This document shows positions 45,272 through 63,999 of a stretch of 64,000 nucleotides of DNA, in pieces. Numbering within the stretch: position 1 is the stretch's first letter; each line of letters begins with the position of its first letter. The DNA lies in NCBI RefSeq assembly GCF_008831285.2, contig NC_045140.1:27174131-27238130 (forward strand). Reading direction: 5' to 3'. Source of the stretch: Nymphaea colorata. Taxonomy: Eukaryota; Streptophyta; Magnoliopsida; Nymphaeales; Nymphaeaceae. Position numbers and translations under genes: made by a program. The notes under the pieces are model-generated. The model did no database searches. It worked only from the letters and a program-made list of their open reading frames with translations, and had not been told where the DNA came from.

Positions 45272-45903
45272 ACAGCCACCTCAAAGTTCCAGGAGAACAC
45301 GTCGCCTGCGATCGAGTGTAGGACCTCACCCGAACGATGGCTGTCGGCCTGGGGCCAGAACTTCAGGCTTCAACCCGCCTACTCCACTCCAAAACAATCC
45401 AATCAAAGATATCATGAAATTGTTTGATCTTTGACTGAAGTTGCCTGAAATTAGAGTCTTAATTAAACAGCTTCAGGGCAGCATGAAGTAAAGCCACGTT
45501 ATCAAGCCTGTCTTAATTAAACTGCCCAAAACATCGATCAAATGCTTCAAAAAAGTATCAATCAGAATAAAATGTGAAACGGCAAGTGTAGTTGCAGATA
45601 AAGAACCATAATTTAGATATCTTAATGCATTTTCTAAGTTAGCATATCTCAAGGCATAGAGAAAAGCTGTCTGCAGAAAATAGGCCAAATAGTTAATACT
45701 TATCATCAGCATTATGAAAAAACATGAGGCCCGTCTTAATCGAATTTGGCATATATTGACAAACTTTGAAATGACATGCTTGTCATATGAATCCTCACCC
45801 CACTTTCACATTCGCTAAAGAATTTTCAAGTTATTCTTAAATTTACTTACATAGCTAATTTGTAAATAATAATGATAATAATAATAATAGCAACTCAAGC
45901 ATG

Positions 45904-45952
<49 letters not shown>
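45904..45952 (+). repeat. Compound (TA)n(GA)n microsatellite
   Basis: About 25 bp of (TA)n followed directly by about 25 bp of (GA)n. Confidence 0.95.
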
Positions 45953-46847
45953 AAAGCCAGACACTTAGGTCAGAGAAAAAAATCACACCTTTTAATTTTT
46001 TCCAAAAAGTTATTTTAAAATATAAACATTCTAATATGTTTACAAAAACTATTTTGATGTAAAAAATGTTTGAATCAAGTTGTTTTCATGAAAAATATTG
46101 GTTTTTCCATTATCAAAATGTTGATGCTATGAGAGCCATTCATTTTTGTTTATTATAAAGATAATATTAAAACCCAAAAAAGGATCAATTTAATGTATAT
46201 TTTGCATCAACCTATGTTTAAGATCGTATTGGGTAAGGTTAAATTAAAAAAAAAAAAACTTTTTGAAATATCACAATTAAAAAGGATTGATTTTTTTCCC
46301 TAACCTATTGGTCAGAAAAATCCGCAAATGATACATAGAGTCTAGGACTGGTTTTCTCATATTAGTTCTCCTCCCCAGGATCAATTGATGTCATGGTGGA
46401 GAAAGATGATTGTGAAAAGAAAAAATGAAATCAGATACTAAAATGAGATTTATTTTGGTTAAATATTGGTGTCCTGATCACCAGCTTCCTCAAACCAGAT
46501 TATGATCCATCTGCTACAATAGGAAGACTAAGACCTTTGCAGTCCGTCAACGAAGCAAGTGTATTAATTTGATATAATTTTGGAATATTCCTTCAAACTT
46601 AACATCCTCTGGGTCATGCTTAGGATCATTCACTCAGCACGCTAGATCTCTTTCTCCATATTGACAAAAAACACATATTATTGCTTAATAAGATGTGAAA
46701 GAGTGGTCTGCATGCTGGGGAACGCCCAACAACATATACCCTTACATTTTATTTCACATAGACGATTGATCTGCTGCTCTGATATTTATTACAACTCACA
46801 GTAATAAAGGACCAGCCAAATGTTAATTTGGCACGTCCTATATATAT

Positions 46848-50172: not shown

Positions 50173-52732
50173 CAGTGGTTAGGACCTCGGGTTTTCTTCC
50201 TTCTTTGCGTCACACATAATATTTTTTCTAAACTTAAGCAGTACGCTGTTGAAGAAGCATGTTTTAGAAGAATCGTTATGGTAATATGTCATTCAATATT
50301 AAGAAGCTAACAATTTTAGAAGAATGCGACGTATTGACGAATTTTATCATCGGTTTCATTTTAGAAGAATCGTTCTAAACTTAGTCAGAACGTAGCATTT
50401 GTCATTGATAAAAATGCAACATGACATGGCCATGACCATAGAAAAAGGAAGAACACGTAGGTGAGGAAGAAAAAAACCTCGCTCGTTTAATTGTTGGGAA
50501 GAATCGGCAGACTCCTACTTGCTTACCTCCAGAAATGCACAGCTAGCCTTCGGATATTGAGCAAATGGTCTCTTCATGTTTTCGTATCCTTCCCGAGACT
50601 TTGTTGGCATACGTTAAATTTTACTTTTTAATATTTCATTTCATTTTATTTTTATTTGTCAGTTTTTTAGTTTTTCCTTAAACTAACGATATAAGTTCTA
50701 ATTTGGTTCGCTTCTCGATTTTTTTAATATTTTCATGTAGTTAACAGCTTTTTAGGGGTTGTTTGTGGACAGCCCAAAAGTAGGTTTCTGAAGTGTTTGT
50801 TTATGGAAAACATGAACATTCTATGTTCAATTTCCATACATTTAAAAATTGGTTTCTAACATAACATAATGTGGTTTAGATTCAGTTGTGTATTTAAAAG
50901 TTGTATTCGGCTGTGAAAATAAAAGTTAGATTCAAATTGAATTGAAAAATTGGATATGGATATGCTAGATAACTTTTTTCTTTCCTATTCGAATTAAAAT
51001 TTAAATTTGAATATCTTAAGATCGATCAATCTGATCAAGGGTACACCCGATTCAATTTCAATCCGTCATCCTTATTTATAACCCTCTTACACGACCAGAA
51101 ACGGATTGGATCTACTTTTACAAATCTGCCAATTAGAGTCCAACAAACAAACCTTCCTACTTGATCTTGTAGACCGCAACCCAACACGATCCGTCTCGCC
51201 GGCGGACCTAAAAGCAGCATCGGCCGCCGTTCTCCGGATGAATTTATTTAATAAACAAATCTGCAAATAAAAATAAGAAACAATTATGTTAAAATATTGT
51301 CTAATACAGGTTGATCCGCTGTCTCTTTTAGGCATCCAACATGCGACGTACTTTCATCTATCTTTTTACAAAATCCATGCCGACGTAATCAAGAAAATAA
51401 ATGTGAAATGATAAGAATGTTCGATGAAGAGGCCTCAGCAAAAATAGATAACTACCTACCATAAATATTATAAAAACAAAAGTGGTCACCATCTTGATCA
51501 AAATTTGTATTCCGATGGAAAACTTAAAATGTCAAATACTTCTAGAATAGAAATCAATACCACATTTTTGCATTAAGTTATTCCTGAATACTGAAATTGT
51601 CCTTCATTTTATTTGCATTACTTGTATGCAAATTGGCCGATGTATTTGAACCGCAGATCTCGGTAGCTTATAATGGATGCTATATCAAGGTCGAACAAAA
51701 AGCTGATGCACATTATAGCCCATCTCTTGTACAACGGAGAAGCCACAAAGAGCCCTTTCCGTTCCTTCTTCCGTGATGCAATTCTCCGATCACATCATGA
51801 TTTGATATAATTTGAAATTGTTTCAAATTTAAGATTCTTAGGGACGGGATCAAAAGCTACCCCATCTTCAATCCGTGTGTTGTTAATGGGAGATTCATGG
51901 GAAGCTATGGCTTTTTACAGGTTGCATGTGGACACTTGAATAAGATCTGGATTGAAGTTTAAAGTTTGATAGGCCATGAATCTTGTTACACGTACATGTG
52001 ATCACACGAGGGTACCTCATTTGGACTACTGGCTGTATCGACTGCACCAAAAACACAGACCTACTCAAATATGACCATGGACGAGCTCAAATCGAGTTTA
52101 GTAATGTATGAGATAACAAAAGGTTTATGAGATGTTGAGATAACAGATAGACTAGAATGTGAGATAATATTTATGAGATAATAAAATAACGCAAACCAAA
52201 AACATTTTTTTACATGTTAAAGAGGTCATAATGATATGGATGTACGCATGAACAGTTGACCTCATGAGCCTACAACTTCCAAGGTGCTTGGCTAGACTAT
52301 GTTATTCTTGTTACCATGCAATTAACCTTCGCATCGAAAAGCACTCTTGAAGTGCTGTAAATAGTAACCATATTAGTTTTCCCGTATATTATTTGTCCTT
52401 TTAAGGTGAAAAATGGTACTTCTCTTCACTTTTAAAGCTAAAATGAATCAAGCTCCTTCGTTGGAGCATCGACGCCTGGGGATCAAGCTCATTCATTCGG
52501 TATGAATAGACGACGACCCAATTCACGATTACACACACACTCTGTCTCTTTTACTCACAAACAGCGACAGAAAAGCGTGCAATTTTTATTACAATGAGTA
52601 GATACTATTTGACAGACAGATAAATTAAGCAACAGAGGACGTTGGAGAACATTCGTAGGATATATCTTCAGGGCTAGCCAACGTCCACCCTTACAAGTTA
52701 TTCTATACTCCGTTTATTACATACCCAGAAGG
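47701..52732. other. Spacer between PR-1b and PR-1c
   Basis: No gene seen. Several blocks recur in the spacer left of PR-1e in the same order: 49300-49560 resembles 60080-60330, 50571-50720 resembles 60896-61045, and 51420-51910 resembles 55675-56100 and 61430-61800. It includes (TTAA)n-like sequence at 48357-48376, (CA)n near 48613, (TA)n at 50139-50171 and a degenerate TGAGATAAC repeat at 52107-52190. A 63-codon frame at 48898 has no recognisable motif. Confidence 0.65.
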
Positions 52733-52763: not shown

Positions 52764-53258
52764 CTAGTAGGGACGCTCCCCTCTAAAGTTTCCACGAGGG
52801 TCGTAGTTGCAGGTAATGAAGATGGCACCATTGTTACATGTGACCTTAGCGCAGCCCAGCCGCACCGAGTTGCGCCACACCACCTGAGTGTAGTGCCGGC
52901 ACTCCTTTCCAGTGGCACAGGTGTTGGTGGCGTAGTCATAGTCACTTGCTTCGGCAATCCACAAGTTCACGGCATCTGCTGCAGAGTAGTCTTTTCCAAA
53001 GCCCCCGAAGAGGTTCTCTCCATACGGGCCACGAGAGTGAATCATGTTGCAGTCGCCAATCCTCTGGTTGGCATAGTTCTGGGCGTAGGCTGCAACGGTG
53101 TCATCCCAAGAGATTGGACCGACGCCAACTTGGGCACGAGCAGCGTTGTGAGCATCAACGAAGTCTTGGGGAGAGCTTTGAGCATGAATTCCATGGATTA
53201 ACATTCCAAGGCCCAGCAGTAGGAAAGCCAAAAGAAAGGCATGAGGGGAACGCTCCAT
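52764..53258 (-). CDS. PR-1 family secreted CAP-domain protein (copy c)
   Basis: An intronless 164-aa PR-1 protein. I start it at the ATG at 53258 (MERSPHAF), which aligns with copies a and b; the four in-frame codons before it begin with GTG. The signal peptide covers about residues 1-26. All six cysteines and the H74/E81/E103/H122 set are present. Two positions are unusual: CRHYTQ replaces the near-invariant CGHYTQ next to a metal-site histidine, and HSRGPYGEN replaces HSGGPYGEN. The C terminus is [21 protein letters not shown] lies at 52733-52738 (minus). It is probably functional, but the Gly-to-Arg change could alter the cleft. Confidence 0.9.
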
Positions 53259-53372
53259 GGGGACGATCACACGAAAGAGAACAGAGATGTAGAGGTCCTA
53301 AAGAAAGCTGGTACTTCCTTATGTGGCTCTAGCTCTTGGGCTTGTGATCGAAGAACGGGGAGAGGTCGCCAA

Positions 53373-53670
53373 ATTTATAGATCACCATGAACTTAAGTCC
53401 ATGCTGGTTAGCTTCGTCATCATCTTTGAAAAGTATGCCATCCCCCCTTGCACAGCTTGAACGGGCTCGCTGGTTAGCTTGGTCTTTGTCTTTGAAAAGT
53501 ACGCCATCCAATATAGAAAGTTCTCGTGAAGTTTAGGTAGCTGCTACGCCCTGTTGGTAGATTTCCCACATTTTAGTATGAAAAGGATGAAACTTCACAG
53601 AAAACTATTGGCGATGAGGAGGATCAGGAGCAATGAAAAAAACACCTTCTGCATTTTTCTATTGACAACG
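53373..53670 (-). promoter_or_regulatory. PR-1c promoter with duplicated proximal module
   Basis: TATA box CTATAAATTT at about 53373-53380 (minus). The GCTGGTTAGCTT..CTTTGAAAAGTA..GCCATCC module occurs twice, at 53403-53443 and 53469-53509 (66-bp offset), whereas copies a and b have it once. The distal part runs to about 53670. Confidence 0.65.
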
Positions 53671-56600
53671 GTGGGTGATGTAAAAATTATCAAACTCAAC
53701 AAGTTCAGCAAATATGGCGAACCACAAATTTACAATTCGTCGCCACCTTCCAACATCTAGTTTATCTTACTAAACCTCCACGTCGCGTCCAAATATGAAA
53801 GTTCTTTCGATTGTGACCGACATGGTTCGACACAGTAAAAAATATTCTTTGAGACGATTTTGCTCTGATGCCCGTGTAGGATTTCTAGTATATTATATAA
53901 AACTTTGTCTTAATGTTTTGCAGTTACATTGATATCCACGATTTGCATTACAAAAAGAAAATGCAAGCACGAACCATTTAGTCCCACCAAAGTGATCACG
54001 CAAAGTCCCACCACAACTGATGCACTAGTCTCTAGTTACTACTGTCTCACCAAGTCCAGGGCAGTGAAGCATGGTGAAGATGAGGTTTAGAAGAGGAAAA
54101 GAAGAACAGATTATCACCACCACACAGCTGCGATGGTGCGAAGATATTGCACAAGCATTAAGTGGGCACTAATAATATTCCGCTTCCTATAGTTTTAAAA
54201 TTCATCCCCAAAAGACGAGGAACCAAGGACCCACTTTATGTGTCTCTTAAAATTGCTGACAATATTAAATATGAAACTCAGCTTTTCAAGCTGAAGCGAT
54301 ACAATTAAACGTACCCCGTGACTCGTGAGTTTTTGATTTATCATAGTGCAATGGCATTTAATTTGTTCTAAGGGTAGCAGCTCAACATATGCTCAACCAC
54401 CCAATAGGGAGTCATTTTGGTGTAGAGGTATTTGGTCTCATCAGCTTTTACAATTATGGTTAAAAAAAAAAAGAAACTGCTACCTAGCTAATGGGAGGAA
54501 TTAACGTAAAGTTTGCACCTAAAATTGGCCCTCATATGAGCAAGAGAAAATATATGCGATATAGGAAAATACGGTTAAAATATCTCAAACCATATTCTAC
54601 GTCAGCATATATAAAAGCCATCAGCAAAATGACTAAAAGACTTAACCTAATCCATAAAATATTATAAAAGCAAAATCGGTCGCCATCTTGATCAAATTTG
54701 GTGTTCTTATGAACAAAGCTAAAATGACATATGTTTCTAGAACACAAATCCTTACCATATTTTTGCATTAAATTATTATTGAATACAGAAATACAACGTT
54801 ATCGTCAGCTTTTGGTGGCTACTACGCGCAAGCCCACATTTTAATAGAGAAATGAACAAACTTTACATGAAATTAATAGTGATGCGGAACGATTAGGATC
54901 AATGGAACTCCACACAAGACCATCTTTTACATTTTCCCATTCCAAATAGTTGGTGAAATTAACTCACAGAATCAACAGGAGGCTCTGATGCTTGAGAATC
55001 GAAACATGGCACAACGTTTGATAACTAAGCAGCCATGACTTGAACTGTCATTAAGGACTTGGGGCCGACCTTGGACATTGTTGACTCGTCTACCCGTCCA
55101 CCGGGCCTGATGTCCGGCCTTTTAAGTTTCCATCCAAATCAAACGATGGGTAATTGTTTAAATCAGGTTGGTCATGTTTAAATTCAGATCTGGATAGGGT
55201 TTCAAATAAGTATTCTATGCTGAACCTCGAATTGTATGACCAATTTCCATGCATTCAAAAGTTGGTAGTTAACATAATACGATAATGGGTTTAGATTCAG
55301 TTGTGTACTTAAAAATTAGATTCAGTTATAACAAGTAATTTCGTTTCATTACTTTCATCCGGACTCGGATGATCTGTTTAATATTTATGGGTTTTACTGA
55401 ATGGTAAAAAGTATTTTTAGACCATATACAGATTGAATATGCTTGATGGCGTGCCTAAAAGCAGCATCGGCCCATGTCGGGCATAACAACCCAAAAATTT
55501 TAAACTTTTTATAAATTTATTTAATAAACAAATCTGGAAATGAAAATAAAAGAGAAGTATGTCAAAAATATTGGCCAATAAAGGCTGATAGGCTATATCT
55601 TTTATTCATCCGACATGCGACGTATTTTCATCTATTTTTAGAAATCCATCCTGACGTAATCAAGAGAAGAAATGAAAAATGATGTGAAGGAACGGCTAAG
55701 ATATCTCGAAAGCCATCCCTCAAAAATAGATAATTGCCTATAATAAATTTCATAAAAACAAAAGCTCTCACCATCTTTGCCAAATTTGGTATTCTTAAGC
55801 GCAAACTTAAGATGCCGTATAATTCTAGAATACAGATCCTAATTACCATATTTTTGCATACTGAAATAGTCCTCTTTGCTGTACTTACATGCAAATTGGT
55901 CCATGTATTCGAACTGCAGATGTCGGTAGCAGCTTATAATGGATGCTATATCAGGATCACGGGGACGCCAGAAAGGGCCCTTTTTTCCTTTCCCTTCTTC
56001 CATGATGCCAGTCTCCGATAACATCATGATTTGATATAATTTGAAATTCTTCAAATTTAAGATCCTTAGGGATAAGATCAAAAGTGGACACGTGAACAAG
56101 ATTGGGATTGAAGTTTGATAAACCTAAAATTTTGGTATGGGCTTATGTGATCACATCAGTGTGGACAAGCTGGCAGTATCCACTGCACCAGAAACACGGC
56201 CTACTCAAATATGACCATGCACAAGATAGGCAGCCATGAACAGCTGACCCGATGAGCCTAGGCTTGACCCGAACTGCGGCAACTCCTGGGGCGACTAGGC
56301 TCTGTTATTCTTGTTACGAAGAAATTGACGTTATATGCTGCCTAATATTCGATCAAAATTTATTAGTTGAAGTGAATCAAGCTGCTTCGTTTGAGCAATT
56401 TTAGTTTAAATGGCGGCAATGACGTTTTTAGGCTTTGGTTTGAAAATTTATACACGTTTAAGCGTAGTCCCTAGGAGGACCCATGAAAACTTTCTGAGAT
56501 TCCCCGGTATAAATGGAATTTGATGGAGATCAAGCTCATCCAAATCATGATCAGACCACCTCTCTCTCTCTCTCTCACACACACACACTTATAGAGCAAA

Positions 56601-56767
56601 ATATGTATAGATACTTTTAACAGGGAAAGAAAAATCATACAATCGTAAATGCAAAATATGTATAGATACTTTTAACAGGATAAATCAAGCAACGGAGGCC
56701 GGTAGGTGGCGTTGCATACGTCCACCCTTACAATTTATTTTATATAGAGGAGAGAGCCTACGCTCTG
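53671..56767. other. Spacer between PR-1c and PR-1d
   Basis: No gene. It contains a gene-less PR-1 unit at 54540-55010, listed separately, a copy of the 54390-54470 block that recurs at 58710-58820 and 59865-59995, and the 55675-56100 block shared with the other units. A (TC)n(AC)n tract lies at about 56561-56590. Confidence 0.65.
54540..55010 (-). other. Gene-less PR-1 unit 1 (distal promoter without gene)
   Basis: The right part (about 54796-55010) aligns with the distal promoter of copies c and d: GTCAGCTTTTGGTGGCTACTAC, GAAATTAATAGTGATG, GGTGAAATTAACTCAC and GGAGGCTCTGATG. The left part (54540-54790) aligns with the block that in intact units lies about 1.6-1.9 kb to the left of that promoter, beyond the gene. 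The gene, its TATA box and proximal module are missing between them. The junction is near 54790. Confidence 0.75.
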
Positions 56768-56818
56768 TTTATTATATAACCAAAAGGACAAGCCAAACGC
56801 GGGGCATGTCCTGCATAT

Positions 56819-57388
56819 CTAATAGGGACGCTCCCCATCAACGTTACCAGCTGGGTCGTAGTTGCAGGTAATGAAGGTGTCACCGTTGTTACATTCGACC
56901 CTGGCGCAGCCCAGCCGCACGGAGTTGCGCCACACCACCTGAGTGTAGTGCCCGCAATCTTTACCAGTAGCACAGGTATTGGTGGCGTAGTCGTAGTTGC
57001 TCTTCTCAGCCACCCACAAGTTCACGGCATCTACGGCGGTCCACCGAGAACCAGGGCCCCAATAGAGGTTCTCCCCATACTGGCCACCAGAGTGGGTCAG
57101 GCTACAGTCACTGATCGTCTTGTTCAGATAGTTTTGGGCGTAAGCTGCAACGGTGTCGTCCCAGGAGATTGGACCGACGCCATCTTGGGCACGAGCAGCG
57201 TTGTGAGCATCAACGAAGTCTTGAGGTGAGTTTTGAGCGTAAGTACCATGGACGAGCATTCCAAGGCCCAGCAGTAGGGAGACCCAAACAAGGGCTCCAT
57301 CGGGATGATCACTACTCCCTAAGTGAAGCTGGCTCTTGGGCTTGTGGTAGAATAACGGCGAGAGGTCGCCAAATTTATAGAGCACCAT
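56819..57388 (-). CDS. PR-1 family CAP-domain protein (copy d), normal start codon out of frame
   Basis: The CAP domain is complete, with six cysteines, the H/E/E/H set and C terminus [15 protein letters not shown]. The start is damaged. The ATG equivalent to the start of copy c (in GATGGAGCC, around 57298-57304) is shifted out of the CAP frame by an apparent 13-bp deletion between GGAG repeats. The open frame continues upstream to an ATG at 57388, but that stretch contains the TATA box itself (57372-57381), so it is unlikely to be transcribed from the usual site. The next in-frame Met (57259) would leave only about eight residues of the signal peptide. The product may be non-secreted or absent. 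I list the full open frame and regard it as a probable recent pseudogene. AATAAA is at 56768-56773 (minus). Confidence 0.7.
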
Positions 57389-57720
57389 GAACGTAAGGGC
57401 TTGCTGGTTAGCTTGATGATCATCTTTGAAAAGTATGATATCTCACCATGCACAGTATGAACGAGGTCGCTGGTAAGCTTCGTCATCAGCTTTGGAAACT
57501 ACGCCATCCAATATTGAAAGTTCTTGTGAAGTTTCGGTAGCTAGTACGCCCTGTGAGTACATCAAAATGGACCACATCTTATCATAAACAAGATGAAACT
57601 TCGCAGGAAATTAACTTAACTAATGGCGATGCAAAAGGATGAGGAGCAATGGAGCTCCTCAGGCAAAAAAAATCACCTTCTATACTTTCCTAGTCAAACT
57701 GGTGGGTGAAATTAACTCAC
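57372..57720 (-). promoter_or_regulatory. PR-1d promoter with duplicated proximal module
   Basis: TATA box CTATAAATTT at about 57372-57381 (minus). As in copy c, the GCTGGTTAGCTT..CTTTGAAAAGTA module is present twice, at 57402-57442 and 57469-57509. The first is slightly decayed (GATATC instead of GCCATCC). Confidence 0.6.
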
Positions 57721-58974
57721 CGAAGCAACTGGAGGCTCTGATGATTGAAAATTGAAATATGTAATATATGAATACTTTACCAAACTCACTAAGTTGAGCA
57801 GACTTATAGGAATAGGACCCACCCCAGCCAATGACTATTTTTTATATTGAAAAAAAAATTATTTTTTAGTTGTGTAATGTATTTTTTGTATTAAAATTCA
57901 GTTTGGCCCTTCCCGGATCCAGAGGTCGGACCGCTGGCCCGCCTCTAAAGAAAATCTGGGTCCGCCCCTTATTGTGGCCAACATGGTTCAACACAGTAAA
58001 ATATACTATGAGACAATCTTGTTTTGATTCCTAAGTAGGATTACCAAGTATATTATATAAAATCTCTACGATTCAATGTTTTGCAATTACCTTGACATTC
58101 ACGATTTGCAAGTTATGAAAAGAAAGATGCAAGCATGAACCCTTAAATTGTTAATGCATCTATATAATCAGACTTTCGTAGAACAATGAAGAAATTGATT
58201 TGTGAAACGTTACAGGACAGAGTTTGTGCAAAACGAAGTAATTAGATTGCATGGGATGTTTCAGATGAAAAAGAGTAATTATGGAACATGTTGACCAGTG
58301 AACTGTGATTTGGGAAGCAAATATTTTCATCCGTTCTTCTTTTCTTTCATATGAGCCAAGAAGAACATCCCATAGGTCACTTTATATTCTCTTCAACCCA
58401 CCTCCTCCGAGCCTTTGGAGGACCTTCCAAACCTTGCCCCTGGCCATAGTAGCGGAGGTGGATTGTTGTCACGATTCAATTGGCAGATTTCAACATGCCT
58501 CTTAGCAACCTTGGTTTCAGTACCAATTCCAAAAAGGTTATGGAACTAAACTTATCAAAGTGAGGCATTATTAATTCCCTGCATGTGAGACTCTCGGTTA
58601 GTTTCGGTTTCAAACTAAAAAAAGGCAACAAACCAAATAATTAATCATTTAACAACTCTTTTTACAAGTTTCTCAAGATTCCGTACAATCTTAAATACCA
58701 TACTAAAATTTTCAATGTAGGGTTACATAATTAAGACATGTGTTACTACTCACCATACTAGGAATCATTTTAGCGTAGATTTATTTGGTCTGATCAGCTT
58801 TTACAATTGTGTAAGAGGCTAACAATGTTATCCATCCAAGTGTAGCAAAACTCTTTCAATGGAATTCATCGCCAGAGAGGAGATATGCTATGATTATTAA
58901 AAATTGCTATCTAGCTAATGGTTGGAATCTAAAGTTTGAACCTAAAATTGGTCCTAAATTAAACAAGAAAAAAA

Positions 58975-59400
58975 AGTGAAGGGTGTAAGAAAATACGGCT
59001 AAAATATTTCAAACACTATTCTAAGTCAGCATATATAAAAGCCACCAGCAAAAATAGGAAAAGACTTATCATAATCCATAAAATATTATAAAAGCAAAAT
59101 TGGTCCGCGTCTTGATAAAATTGGGTATTATTGTGAACAAACTTTAAATGACATATATTTTATAAACCCAAACCCTTACCATATTTTTGCAATAAATTAT
59201 TCTTGAATACTGAAATAGAAAGTTCTCGTCAACTTTCTGTAGCTAGCACGCGCAATGACAATATGAGATCAAGCACATTTTAATAGAGAAAAAGGCCAAA
59301 ATCTACGAGAAATTAGTGGTGATCAGAAGCGATCAGGAGCAAGGAACTCAAAAAAGAAACCATCTTTTATATTTTCCCTTTCGAAGGTTATAGTATTTGG
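58975..59400 (-). other. Gene-less PR-1 unit 2 (distal promoter without gene)
   Basis: Same structure as the unit at 54540. The left block ends TTGAATACTGAAAT and passes directly into AGAAAGTTCTCGTCAAC, then TAGCTAGCACG and GAAATTAGTGGTGATC, the distal PR-1 promoter. The junction is at about 59216-59220. No CAP codons remain. Its flanks match those of unit 1, so the two derive from one deletion that was later duplicated. Confidence 0.75.
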
Positions 59401-60651
59401 TATCCTTACCTACATAGAAGAGGTGTCCATTCTCGACATATCCGGTAGTTGGTAGTGGATATTCTTAATATAACGTCTTCATATCGTGAGTCAAATTGGA
59501 AAAACAGTGGTACTCCTTATGTATACTATTTTATTGGAATCTAATCTTCACGTTACTATCGAACGTGAAATATCAAAGAAGGTTCTAAGCATTCGAATCA
59601 CTGCCTGAAGTAAAATGATTATACATAGATAATACCGACAAAGGAAACTACTGATTATCAACCACTACCTCGAAAATGGCTTTACAAGCGGAGATTCTGT
59701 TGTCCTTACCAGAAATTTCTATCTGATAGGAGCATGTGAGACTCTCTTTTCAAATTGTCTGCCCGAATTTTATGTACATTTTCCCATTTCGTTAATGTGT
59801 TTCGATTTTCCGATCACTTTTAAGTTACTTTTCATTCATTTTCATGTTTTATTAGTTCCTTTAATTTTCAATGTTGAGTTACATATTAAGACAAGTTTTA
59901 CTACTCACAATCAGTACCCGTGATTTTTTTCAGCCACATGATATCATTTTAGCGTAGATTTATTTGGTCTCATCAGCTATTACAATTATGTAAGAGGAGA
60001 ACTGACAATTTTATCCACTTACCCTATCCCATTCTAAATGTTTACAATTCCTAATTTGAATTAGATTGGCCTCTTGTTCACATCATCGGCTTTATTAACT
60101 ATTTATTTTAAAGGTGAATTACCAGTGATAATTAACCTTTACCGGTGGGTGAGGCCACTGGTAGATATTTTCTAGCGGCCTTCGTAAAGTAAACAAAGAA
60201 AAATTCTTGCTTTATACATGTGGCTGAAAATTCCACAAGAATAATTTGGCAAAATCACGTATCATAAAAAGAGATTCAGGCCAAGGCGGCTTTCCAGGAA
60301 ACTAAAATGTGTTTCCTGAACTTTATACATGACGTTTGTCATCAATAAGATGCAACTAATGACACAAAATGTGATCTTGATTATGAAAAAATAAAGAAAT
60401 ATGCAAATAGTGCGTACCGAAATGTCTATTCGAGCCACCAAAGCAGCCTTAAACCTTAGGGAGATGAGGAGAAGGGGGGCTTCTGTCTTCATTCAGGCAG
60501 TCGATACTCTCGCTCACCAGAAAAATAGGTGGGGAAGAAAAGCCACTTTCTGGTAATTGTTAGACAGAATAGGCTGTTTACTGCCTATTTAGCTCAAGAA
60601 ATTAACAGCTTTTTCTCAGACATTAAACTCATAGTATGTTCATCTTCATTT

Positions 60652-60896
60652 GTCCTTCCGGGTGAGCAAGGGGTATTAATCCTACCGCCCGAAAAAGGCC
60701 CGAAGGCCCCCCCATTCCCCCTGCCTCCGGGGTCCTGAGCTGCGTCGGTGTCAGCGATAGCAACGGTGCACCCTTCAGCTTAGATGCCGCGCCTTACCGC
60801 CTTAAGACACAGGAACATAACGCCCACGGGAATCGAACTAGAGACCTGCCTTAGTACAGGCCCCTAGCTCAACCAGCTACGCTATGCCCCTTGAGG
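60652..60896 (-). mobile_element. tRNA-derived SINE with target-site repeats
   Basis: Read on the minus strand it starts GGGGCATAGCGTAGCTGG (box A TAGCGTAGCTGG) with box B AGTTCGATTCC about 45 bp later, followed by a GC-rich body of about 170 bp. The flanks CATCTTCATTT (60641-60651 and 60897-60907) are a perfect 11-bp target-site duplication; a shifted alternative (TCATTTGTCCTTC) is also possible. The paralogous spacer block near 50571-50610 lacks the insert. The head does not form a full cloverleaf, so it is not a tRNA gene. Confidence 0.85.
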
Positions 60897-62638
60897 CATC
60901 TTCATTTCATTTGTCCTTCGAGCGACTCTGTTGGCAAACAAAATTTCACCTTTTGTATACGCATTAAGCACTTTTTACTTTTTCCTTAAATTACGCATAT
61001 AAATTCTTATTTAGCCCGCTTCTCGATTTTTTAAATGTTTTCTGTCCAGCTCCGCTGCAAAGCATGTCACGGGAAAATCCCTATCATTTATTAACAATAT
61101 ATCTTTTTGTCTACTTAAGAGTTTTTTTTTTTAAAGTGTTTGAATGACACTTTAAAACTAGGTTTTTAAAGTGTTTGGATACCATCAAAGTACAATTTGA
61201 GAAAAACTTGGCCAAGACAAAAACTGGTTTTGTAAAAAAAAAAAAAAATTGAAAACTTGTTCCCTCATATTATTTATAAAAGCCCAAGTTTTGAGTGTGT
61301 CACCCCAACAAACAAATAAACCTAAGTTTGCAAAATTCATTAAAAATGATAAAATGATCATTAAACGAGCTAGATAAAGTTGTTGTCCAAGCCACCGCTT
61401 TGATTTTGCCTATTGATTTGATCAGAAAATCATTAAAAAAAAAACAGGGTTTTCTCATATTTGTGCATTAAGTTGTTCTTGAATACTGAAATTTCCCTTA
61501 ATTATATTTGCTTTACATACTTGCAAATTGGTCGATGTATTCGAACTGCAGATCTTGGTAGCTTATAATCGACGCCATCTCACGATCGAACAAAAAGTAG
61601 ATGCACACTATAGTCCATCTCTTTTACAAAGGAGAAGCCAGAAAGAGCCCTTTTGCCACGAAGCAAATCTCCGATCCCATCATGATTTGACATAATTTGA
61701 AATTTCTTCAAATTTAAGATCCTTAGGTATCGGTTCTAAAGCCACCCCATCTTCAATCCACCCGTTGTTAAAGGGAGATTCTAGGGGAGCTACGAGTTTC
61801 CCAGGTTGTGGATACTTGAAAAAGATCTGCGTCCTTAAATTTTGGTATGGGGCTTGTGTCCAATCAGTGTGACTCATTTGGAGAAGCTGGCTGTATGAAA
61901 CACGCACTCCTCAATTATGACCATGGACAAGCTAGGCAGCCATGAGCCTAGCCTGACCAGAACTGCTGCAACTTAAGGGGCGCCTAGGCGCTGTTATTAT
62001 TGTTACGAGGAAATTAACATTATTTGATGCGTAATATTGCATCAAAATATAGTAACAAAGTTCACATCTAAAAGTACACCTAATTGGTCCTATAGCTTTT
62101 GCTTATGACAAAGCAAACGAGGGCTTCACTCATGCAGTGCTTTTAAGGTGAAAAATGGTACTTGTCTTCACTTTTAAAGTTAAAATGAATCGAGCTCCTT
62201 CGTTGGAGCAATTTAATTTTAAATGGGCAATGACGCCTCTTGTCCTTGGTTTGAAAGTTGTACCCATAATCCTAGTTCCTGGGAGGAGCCATGGAAATTA
62301 CTTTCAGAGATTCTGATCAAAAGATCCATGCCGCAGTTATAAATGGGAATCAAGCTCATTCGGTCAGTAGACGGCCCAAATCATGTTCAGACTGTCTCTC
62401 TCTCTCTATCTATCTTAAACGGCGAGAGAAATGCATACAATGTTTATTACAAAGTATGTATAGATGTTATTTGTGGTGATAAATTATGCAACGGAGGACG
62501 ATGGATAACATGCGTAAGGTATATGGTCGGGCTAGCCAATGTCCACCCTTACAATTTATTTAAATGGACGAGCGAGCCTGCACTCTGTTTATTACATACC
62601 CAAAAAGACAAGCCAAACACTAGGCATGCCCTGTATGT

Positions 62639-63017
62639 CTAATAGGGAATCTCTCCTATAATGTTATCAGCGGGGTCGTAGTTGCAGGTAATGAAAGCGC
62701 CACCATTGTTACACTCGACCCTAGCGCGAGCCAGCCGCACCGAGTTGTGCCACACCACCTGAGTGTAGTGCCCGCACACTTTATCAGTAGCACATGTATT
62801 GGTGCCGTAGTCGTAGTTGCTCTTCTTGGACACCCACAAGTTCACGGCATCTACGGCGGTCCACCCAGAACCACCGCCTCCGAAGATGTTCTCCCCATAC
62901 TCGCCAGTGGCCACGAGAGTGGATCAGGCTGCACTCGCTGATCCTCTGGCTGGCATAGTTCTGGGCGTAAGCTGCAACGGTGTCGCCCCCAAGAGATTGG
63001 ACCAATGCCATTTTTGA
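62639..63017 (-). pseudogene. PR-1 pseudogene (copy e), truncated and frameshifted
   Basis: This remnant begins near the GVGPISW motif of the CAP domain (about residue 44 of the intact copies) and lacks the signal peptide, start codon and promoter. A one-base gain at ISWGG and a seven-base gain before YGEN put the domain in different frames. One disulfide cysteine is lost (LGCAR has become LARAR) and VVWRNS has become VVWHNS. The C-terminal pattern is also degraded ([11 protein letters not shown]). The 3' flank including AATAAA (62588-62593) still matches copies c and d. Sequence upstream of about 63017 is unrelated, so the 5' part was removed by deletion or recombination. Confidence 0.9.
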
Positions 63018-63999
63018 CCAATGGAACTAGTTTACACTCTGCGCCTTTTTGTCGATAACAAATAAACTGAAAATCACAGACATTTGTTTGCATCCAGCCA
63101 CCGTGGAGTATCTTTCACCTGAAGAGTTAACTCAAACCCGGATCCGTTTTTTCTCATCGCTCCGAACCCGTTACATTTTTCTGCCTCAAGTCTTAGAATG
63201 CTGGATCTTAACTAGTTGGACTTGGTTCTGGTTTGAGAAAACCAGACCCGAGCTGGAAGTTGGACCTGAATTTGATTGGGTCAGATCTCATCGTTGCAGA
63301 TTTGGTTGTGCATGAGTTCAAATTGGATATATCATTGACGACGTTATTTAGACGAGTCGATGAAAAATGCCATCACATGAGACCCATTAGTTGCTTATAG
63401 CTTAATAATATTCACTTCAAATTGATATTATTAACTAAAATGGAAGTTTTATTGCGTTAAAACACTTGTTCTAGTTTTTTGTTCATTTATATGTTCCTAA
63501 CTTGCTCGAGCTAAAACTATTTTAATCTTTGGATACATAGTGGTAATTGTTTCAAACCTTTTAGCGGCGCTAGCTATAATCTTTGCCTCATGACAGCCTT
63601 TTAACGGGTCAATTAGTGGATACATATGCCGTCCTACTTTTTCTCCACACATTTTAAATATCATTAAATTTAAATTATCATAAACTACACTTTTTAAGTA
63701 TAATTAAACAGATATGTTAAATAAAACTCTCAAAAAAATGTGAGACCAAGTTCTATACGTCATTCCTGCATATATATCGAGCACACACTAGATATTGACC
63801 CTACTATAAAAATGCATATTTACTTTCATGTTCAAACATTGCAGCATAAGATAACAAGTGTATGAGATAACAAATAGATATGAAAAAATAAATAGGTATG
63901 ATATAACAAATAATTATGAAATAATGTGTATGAAATAACAAATAATTGTGAGATAATGAAAATGTATGAGATAACACTAAACATAAATATGAGATAATG
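63018..63999. other. Region right of the array, with a degenerate ATGAGATAAC repeat
   Basis: No gene. From about 63845 to the window end, units close to TATGAGATAACAAATA recur about eight times with substitutions. A similar but shorter cluster lies at 52107-52190. Confidence 0.65.

Follow-up and report, generated by a model that had tools for sequence, protein, structure and literature searches.

Gene-less PR-1 units in a defence-gene array of Nymphaea colorata, probable relics of a deleted gene copy

The window, as we call the 64,000 nucleotides of Nymphaea colorata contig NC_045140.1 analyzed here (genome size 408 Mb, 783 contigs), holds at 42-63 kb an array of intronless PR-1 genes of the CAP family (PF00188) on the minus strand. 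The genes are named a, b, c, d, e and f from left to right, gene k belongs to a second PR-1 cluster, and units 1 to 4 are stretches with PR-1 flanks and no gene. For the recurring blocks we use L for the left flank, D for the block 3' of a gene, P for the distal promoter block and R1 for the block past P (Table 1). The region covered comprised the window, a further 80 kb rightward and the second PR-1 cluster at C3:27.66-27.73 Mb; extended coordinates carry the window numbering on beyond 64000, and all distances are K2P values. Sequence profiles of D and P were seeded with c, d and units 1 to 4, the P profile also with f, and the order of L, D, P and R1 was compared through matches of at least 50 bp.

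In gene d the counterpart of the start codon of c (57290-57390) does not share the reading frame of the CAP domain; that frame opens upstream, ahead of the TATA box, with a putative start codon. A candidate GC-rich, transposon-like fragment was seen by eye at 57850-57970, between the promoter of d and R1, with no counterpart beside c, and gene e (62639-63018) is truncated at its 5' end. Fragments of PR-1 promoter or 3' flank lacking a full gene are found at extended 73828-74180, 68666-68760, 84394-84581, 88312-88808 and 120984-122188. The two PR-1 clusters (C3:27.17-27.32 Mb and C3:27.66-27.73 Mb), compared through matches longer than 300 bp, have long stretches in common with ∼74-98% identity, largely inverted, and their likeness reflects either a real duplication or a retained haplotype.

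Table 1. Blocks, genes and gene-less units of the PR-1 array (window coordinates unless marked otherwise)
Feature	Position	Strand	Evidence
D block of intact PR-1 gene c	51427..51600	-	Profile match 51428-51602, E 2.7e-43; c itself is in the seed alignment
PR-1 gene c, intronless, CAP domain	52764..53270	-	ORF; Pfam CAP 1.1e-21
P block of gene c	53513..53705	-	Profile / alignment
L flank of unit 1	54225..54612	-	Matches units 2 and 3 throughout, unit 4 partly
D block of unit 1	54613..54792	-	77.8% vs D of c, E 5e-23; z 9-25
P block of unit 1, abutting D	54793..55008	-	From 54832: 78% vs P of f, E 7.5e-25; z 10-38
D block of gene d	55701..55885	-	Profile / alignment
PR-1 gene d, CAP domain open	56819..57295	-	ORF; Pfam; counterpart of the start codon of c out of frame
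P block of gene d	57513..57747	-	Profile / alignment
L flank of unit 2	58651..59036	-	Alignment to other units
D block of unit 2	59037..59216	-	72.0% vs D of c, E 7e-19; z 12-19
P block of unit 2, abutting D	59217..59402	-	z 11-16; junction pattern
Recent PR-1 gene loss pair	extended 113442-116141 (C3:27287572-27290271) vs C3:27711585-27715202		Inverted copies

Beside gene c, the D block ends near 51600 and P starts near 53513, ∼1.9 kb apart with the gene in between; beside gene d the two points lie near 55870 and 57513, 1.64 kb apart and again with the gene in between. These values confirm the gap of 1.6-1.9 kb holding a PR-1 gene that a first-pass annotation of this DNA had described for both intact genes. 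Its claim that the two blocks are joined directly in two gene-less units was also borne out, D abutting P at 54792/54793 in unit 1 and at 59216/59217 in unit 2, in identical register. In these units, which it had placed within 54540..59400, the homologous stretch is longer than it had stated, at about 54225-55010 and 58651-59419. When a degenerate junction pattern was built from both scars and allowed up to two mismatches, it occurred in the window only at 54781-54800 and at the unit 2 joint (0.01 occurrences expected).

Both sides of the units are homologous to PR-1 flanks. In local alignments of the right halves of units 1 to 4 with P of c, d, f and a, tested from 8 to 9 bp beyond the junction, scores were 170-527 and the maxima of 300 dinucleotide shuffles per comparison 90-142, so that all 16 comparisons beat every shuffle (z 10-38). 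The left halves, aligned with D of c, d and b under the same shuffle control, gave scores of 178-466 against shuffle maxima of 111-168, and 12 of 12 lay above every shuffle (z 8-25), making 28 of 28 flank comparisons overall. The first-pass annotation had named differing junctions, or right parts no more like PR-1 promoters than random AT-rich DNA, as evidence that would speak against it; what we found was one register in both scars and right halves that exceed their shuffles throughout. Inside units 1 to 4, four PR-1 proteins used as tblastn queries (E up to 0.01) and five proximal promoters used as blastn queries (E up to 0.001) gave no match to coding sequence or proximal promoter, and Rfam gave 0 matches at gathering score in 54000-60000, the region of units 1 and 2.

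Gene-less units of this kind are not confined to the pair first recognized. A genome-wide search with unit 2 returned at least six matches, namely the four units and a pair of D blocks that adjoin genes; such counts are lower bounds, and the number of units derives from this query and from the regions fetched. Unit 3 (C3:27246085-27246528) falls beyond the window, ∼12.3 kb past unit 2; unit 4 (C3:27679242-27679698, opposite strand) belongs to the second PR-1 cluster, ∼430-450 kb away. Unit 1 is located ∼1.0-1.8 kb upstream of c, unit 2 ∼1.4-2.1 kb upstream of d and unit 4 ∼0.5-1.1 kb upstream of k, while unit 3 is ∼8-9 kb from its truncated neighbor e, with other sequence in between. All six of the listed unit 2 matches are on the same contig and within PR-1 clusters, not dispersed over unrelated places in the manner of transposable element copies, which argues against a dispersed transposon. 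A possible fifth unit at 45537-46003 (58% identity to unit 2 across the junction) was rejected on its right part, whose score of 101 is near the shuffle mean (95) and below the shuffle maximum (146); the left part is genuine (304, shuffle mean 148, maximum 219), and the 3' block of gene b is the best reading of this stretch.

Maximum likelihood trees were computed from 10 of the 13 profile matches for D and 13 of the 18 for P, the remainder being short, weak or near-duplicate. Units 1 to 4 form one clade in both (64% support in D, 90% in P), which falls between the c/d/k(/f) genes and more distant copies, the splits that set it apart from the c/d/k genes in D and the c/d/f/k genes in P being supported at 81% and 60%. 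A split origin was rejected by the AU test for D (unit 1 with c, units 2 to 4 with d and k; p = 0.026) and for P (unit 1 with f; p = 0.0005). A sister relation of the units to c was compatible with the data for both blocks (D, p = 0.24; P, p = 0.21), as were relations to d+k in D (p = 0.24) and to d or to d+f+k in P (p = 0.11 and 0.18). The test did reject d as their sole sister in D (0.011), and f (0.046) or k (0.047) as sole sister in P. Since all four units carry the same junction and group together in the D tree as well as the P tree, their scar likely has a single origin, as far as these comparisons indicate, and the earlier proposal that the deleted unit arose once held up against the split origins tested.

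Units 1 and 2 differ by 0.30, and genes c and d by 0.30 in D, 0.32 in P and 0.25 in the coding region; since these distances are alike, the event that joined D to P would date from about the time when c and d split. The distance of 0.48 between the 3' flanks of c and d is at odds with equal ages and is probably inflated by gaps. BLAST gives 71.5% identity over 642 bp for this 3' flank with the D block included (window self-comparison, matches of at least 80 bp).

We consider the units to be, probably, relics of a PR-1 gene copy whose gene was deleted. A gene 3' flank runs directly into a far promoter at extended 115710, where ∼0.9 kb is missing relative to an inverted copy in the second cluster. 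The two copies are 97.9% identical across 2285 bp on the left side of this point and 92.7% across 439 bp on its right side, and the additional ∼0.9 kb of the inverted copy contains a promoter and a PR-1 gene, the latter with one frame break. The survival of this undeleted copy demonstrates that gene-removing deletions of ∼0.9 kb do occur in the array. An independent gene-less unit on the minus strand at extended 83790-83238 has yet another joint, with a 3' flank fused near the stop codon position to the distal promoter (3' flank score 325, shuffle maximum 150; P score 370, shuffle maximum 135), its comparison with coding sequence being at chance level (95, shuffle maximum 112). No undeleted sister of units 1 to 4 is known and the direction of their event is not directly visible; it is the local precedent, together with the congruent but weakly supported D and P trees, that hints at a former gene in them and favors deletion.

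The same junction could also have formed with no gene lost, by tandem duplication of the intergenic stretch that runs from P of one PR-1 gene to D of the next. The new joint between copies would be D followed by P, a structure identical to that left by a deletion, and a repeat does flank unit 2 (58648-58834 and 59807-60017, 69%), but its spacing of ∼1.16 kb disagrees with that of the P blocks (1.7 kb, 57513 to 59217) and of the D blocks (2.4 kb, 59037 to 61445), so that insertions would be needed as well. Under duplication, moreover, D should group with the right-hand gene and P with the left-hand one, whereas both halves of the units share one place in the trees, albeit with weak support, and clear local precedent was seen for deletion. 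We regard a duplication as unlikely. The first-pass annotation, which had read a deletion of gene and proximal promoter from the joint, was correct that both are missing from the units, but the joint itself would look the same after a tandem duplication.

Either origin would allow the units to have been kept as an additional distal promoter, a dying copy having become an upstream element of the left-hand PR-1 gene that spread with the array. The positions of units 1, 2 and 4, at 0.5-2.1 kb upstream of c, d and k and in the same orientation, would suit such a role, but unit 3 is about 9 kb from truncated e, and P is no better conserved between units than D or the adjacent L, conservation being lower only at the far-left L of units 1 and 2 (0.44-0.62). 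W-box and TGACG motifs number 0-2 per unit (shuffle means below 1), and neither enrichment nor a conserved island was detected in units 1 to 4. A gain of TGACG or a W-box in the P block was considered and dropped, units 1, 2 and 4 reading CGTCA and unit 3 AGTCA, with unremarkable counts. Thus the option that the units act as extra regulatory DNA, raised in the first-pass annotation, found nothing in its favor in motif counts near those of shuffles or in patterns of conservation, and we think retention for such a role improbable; judged from their sequence, relics devoid of proximal promoter and coding sequence would most likely be inert.

We give hardly any credence to the idea that the gene-less state is ancestral and that gene and proximal promoter were inserted later, for, although the PR-1 genes here are open without introns, blocks resembling D or P are also found beside the more distant a and b (b has a D block at 45664-45811, and both genes have P blocks), and the intact order thus seems to predate the units.

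In the deletion that we prefer, a single event at about the time when the c, d, f and k genes began to diverge would have removed ∼1.6-1.9 kb by end-joining, namely the coding sequence, the inner part of the 3' flank and the proximal promoter with its TATA box, and would have left the outer 3' block attached to the distal promoter block. The microhomology TGAAA had been suggested earlier as the crossover, but this would yield ACTGAAAGTTC, whereas the scars in the units read AC[T/A]GAAATA and then G, C or A. A 4-bp overlap, AT(A/T)G, present as GAAATAG in D of d and ATATAG in P of c, fits the crossover better; by a rough hand estimate, an overlap of 4 bp has a chance of a few per cent at a random AT-rich joint. 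By eye, the joint of the recent deletion (extended 115710) shows only 1 bp of homology.

The relic would then have been copied by duplication within the array and into the second cluster, partly with neighboring genes, to give four copies. P, R1 and L occur in identical order beside c and d, with a matching layout of gene, P, R1 and unit, and this common order fits joint copying of gene and unit. Units 2 and 3 differ by only 0.08, against 0.26 for the 3' flanks of d and e, and between d and k the distance rises from 0.07 in the 3' flank through 0.13 in D, 0.15 in the coding region and 0.22 in P to 0.29 in the unit (units 2 and 4). We infer from this gradient a later exchange centered on the 3' side, which may have blurred the pairing of genes with units. 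The distances of d to k and to e lead us to reject the notion that gene and unit were always copied together. The pairing proposed earlier, c with unit 1 and d with unit 2, agrees with the matching order beside these two genes but is too simple for four copies in which the d/k and d/e histories disagree.

The array thus offers a readable record of gene death among defence genes: an old scar present four times, and no fewer than two independent scars, of which one is recent and has its undeleted copy still in place. The joints and the later exchange can be traced directly in the sequence, and a tally of genes by itself would underestimate how often members were lost from the array. In kind this is ordinary birth-and-death decay, or gene-family turnover, in a well preserved case. 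Birth-and-death evolution is the label applied to tandem plant defence genes. Devos et al. in 2002 reportedly described deletions by illegitimate recombination in plant genomes that are of kilobase scale and have little homology at the joint. Such deletions are usually described for LTR retrotransposons, whereas here a gene of a tandem array would have been hit. In the titles and abstract openings listed for PR-1, tandem arrays and deletions, among which subscription journals are thinly represented, gene-less PR-1 units are not described. According to the excerpted text of a cacao study, PR tandem arrays are very common in the plants surveyed, and uninduced members of PR-1 arrays were suggested to be possibly turning into pseudogenes (PMC4869279). 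The present array resembles those cacao arrays, as that excerpt portrays them, in having tandem PR copies that vary in number, some of them perhaps decaying. It differs from them, to the same extent, in that the relic keeps only the outer flanks, with no coding sequence, and exists as four copies with one scar; what is unusual here is the preservation of that scar four times over, next to independent scars that include a recent one.
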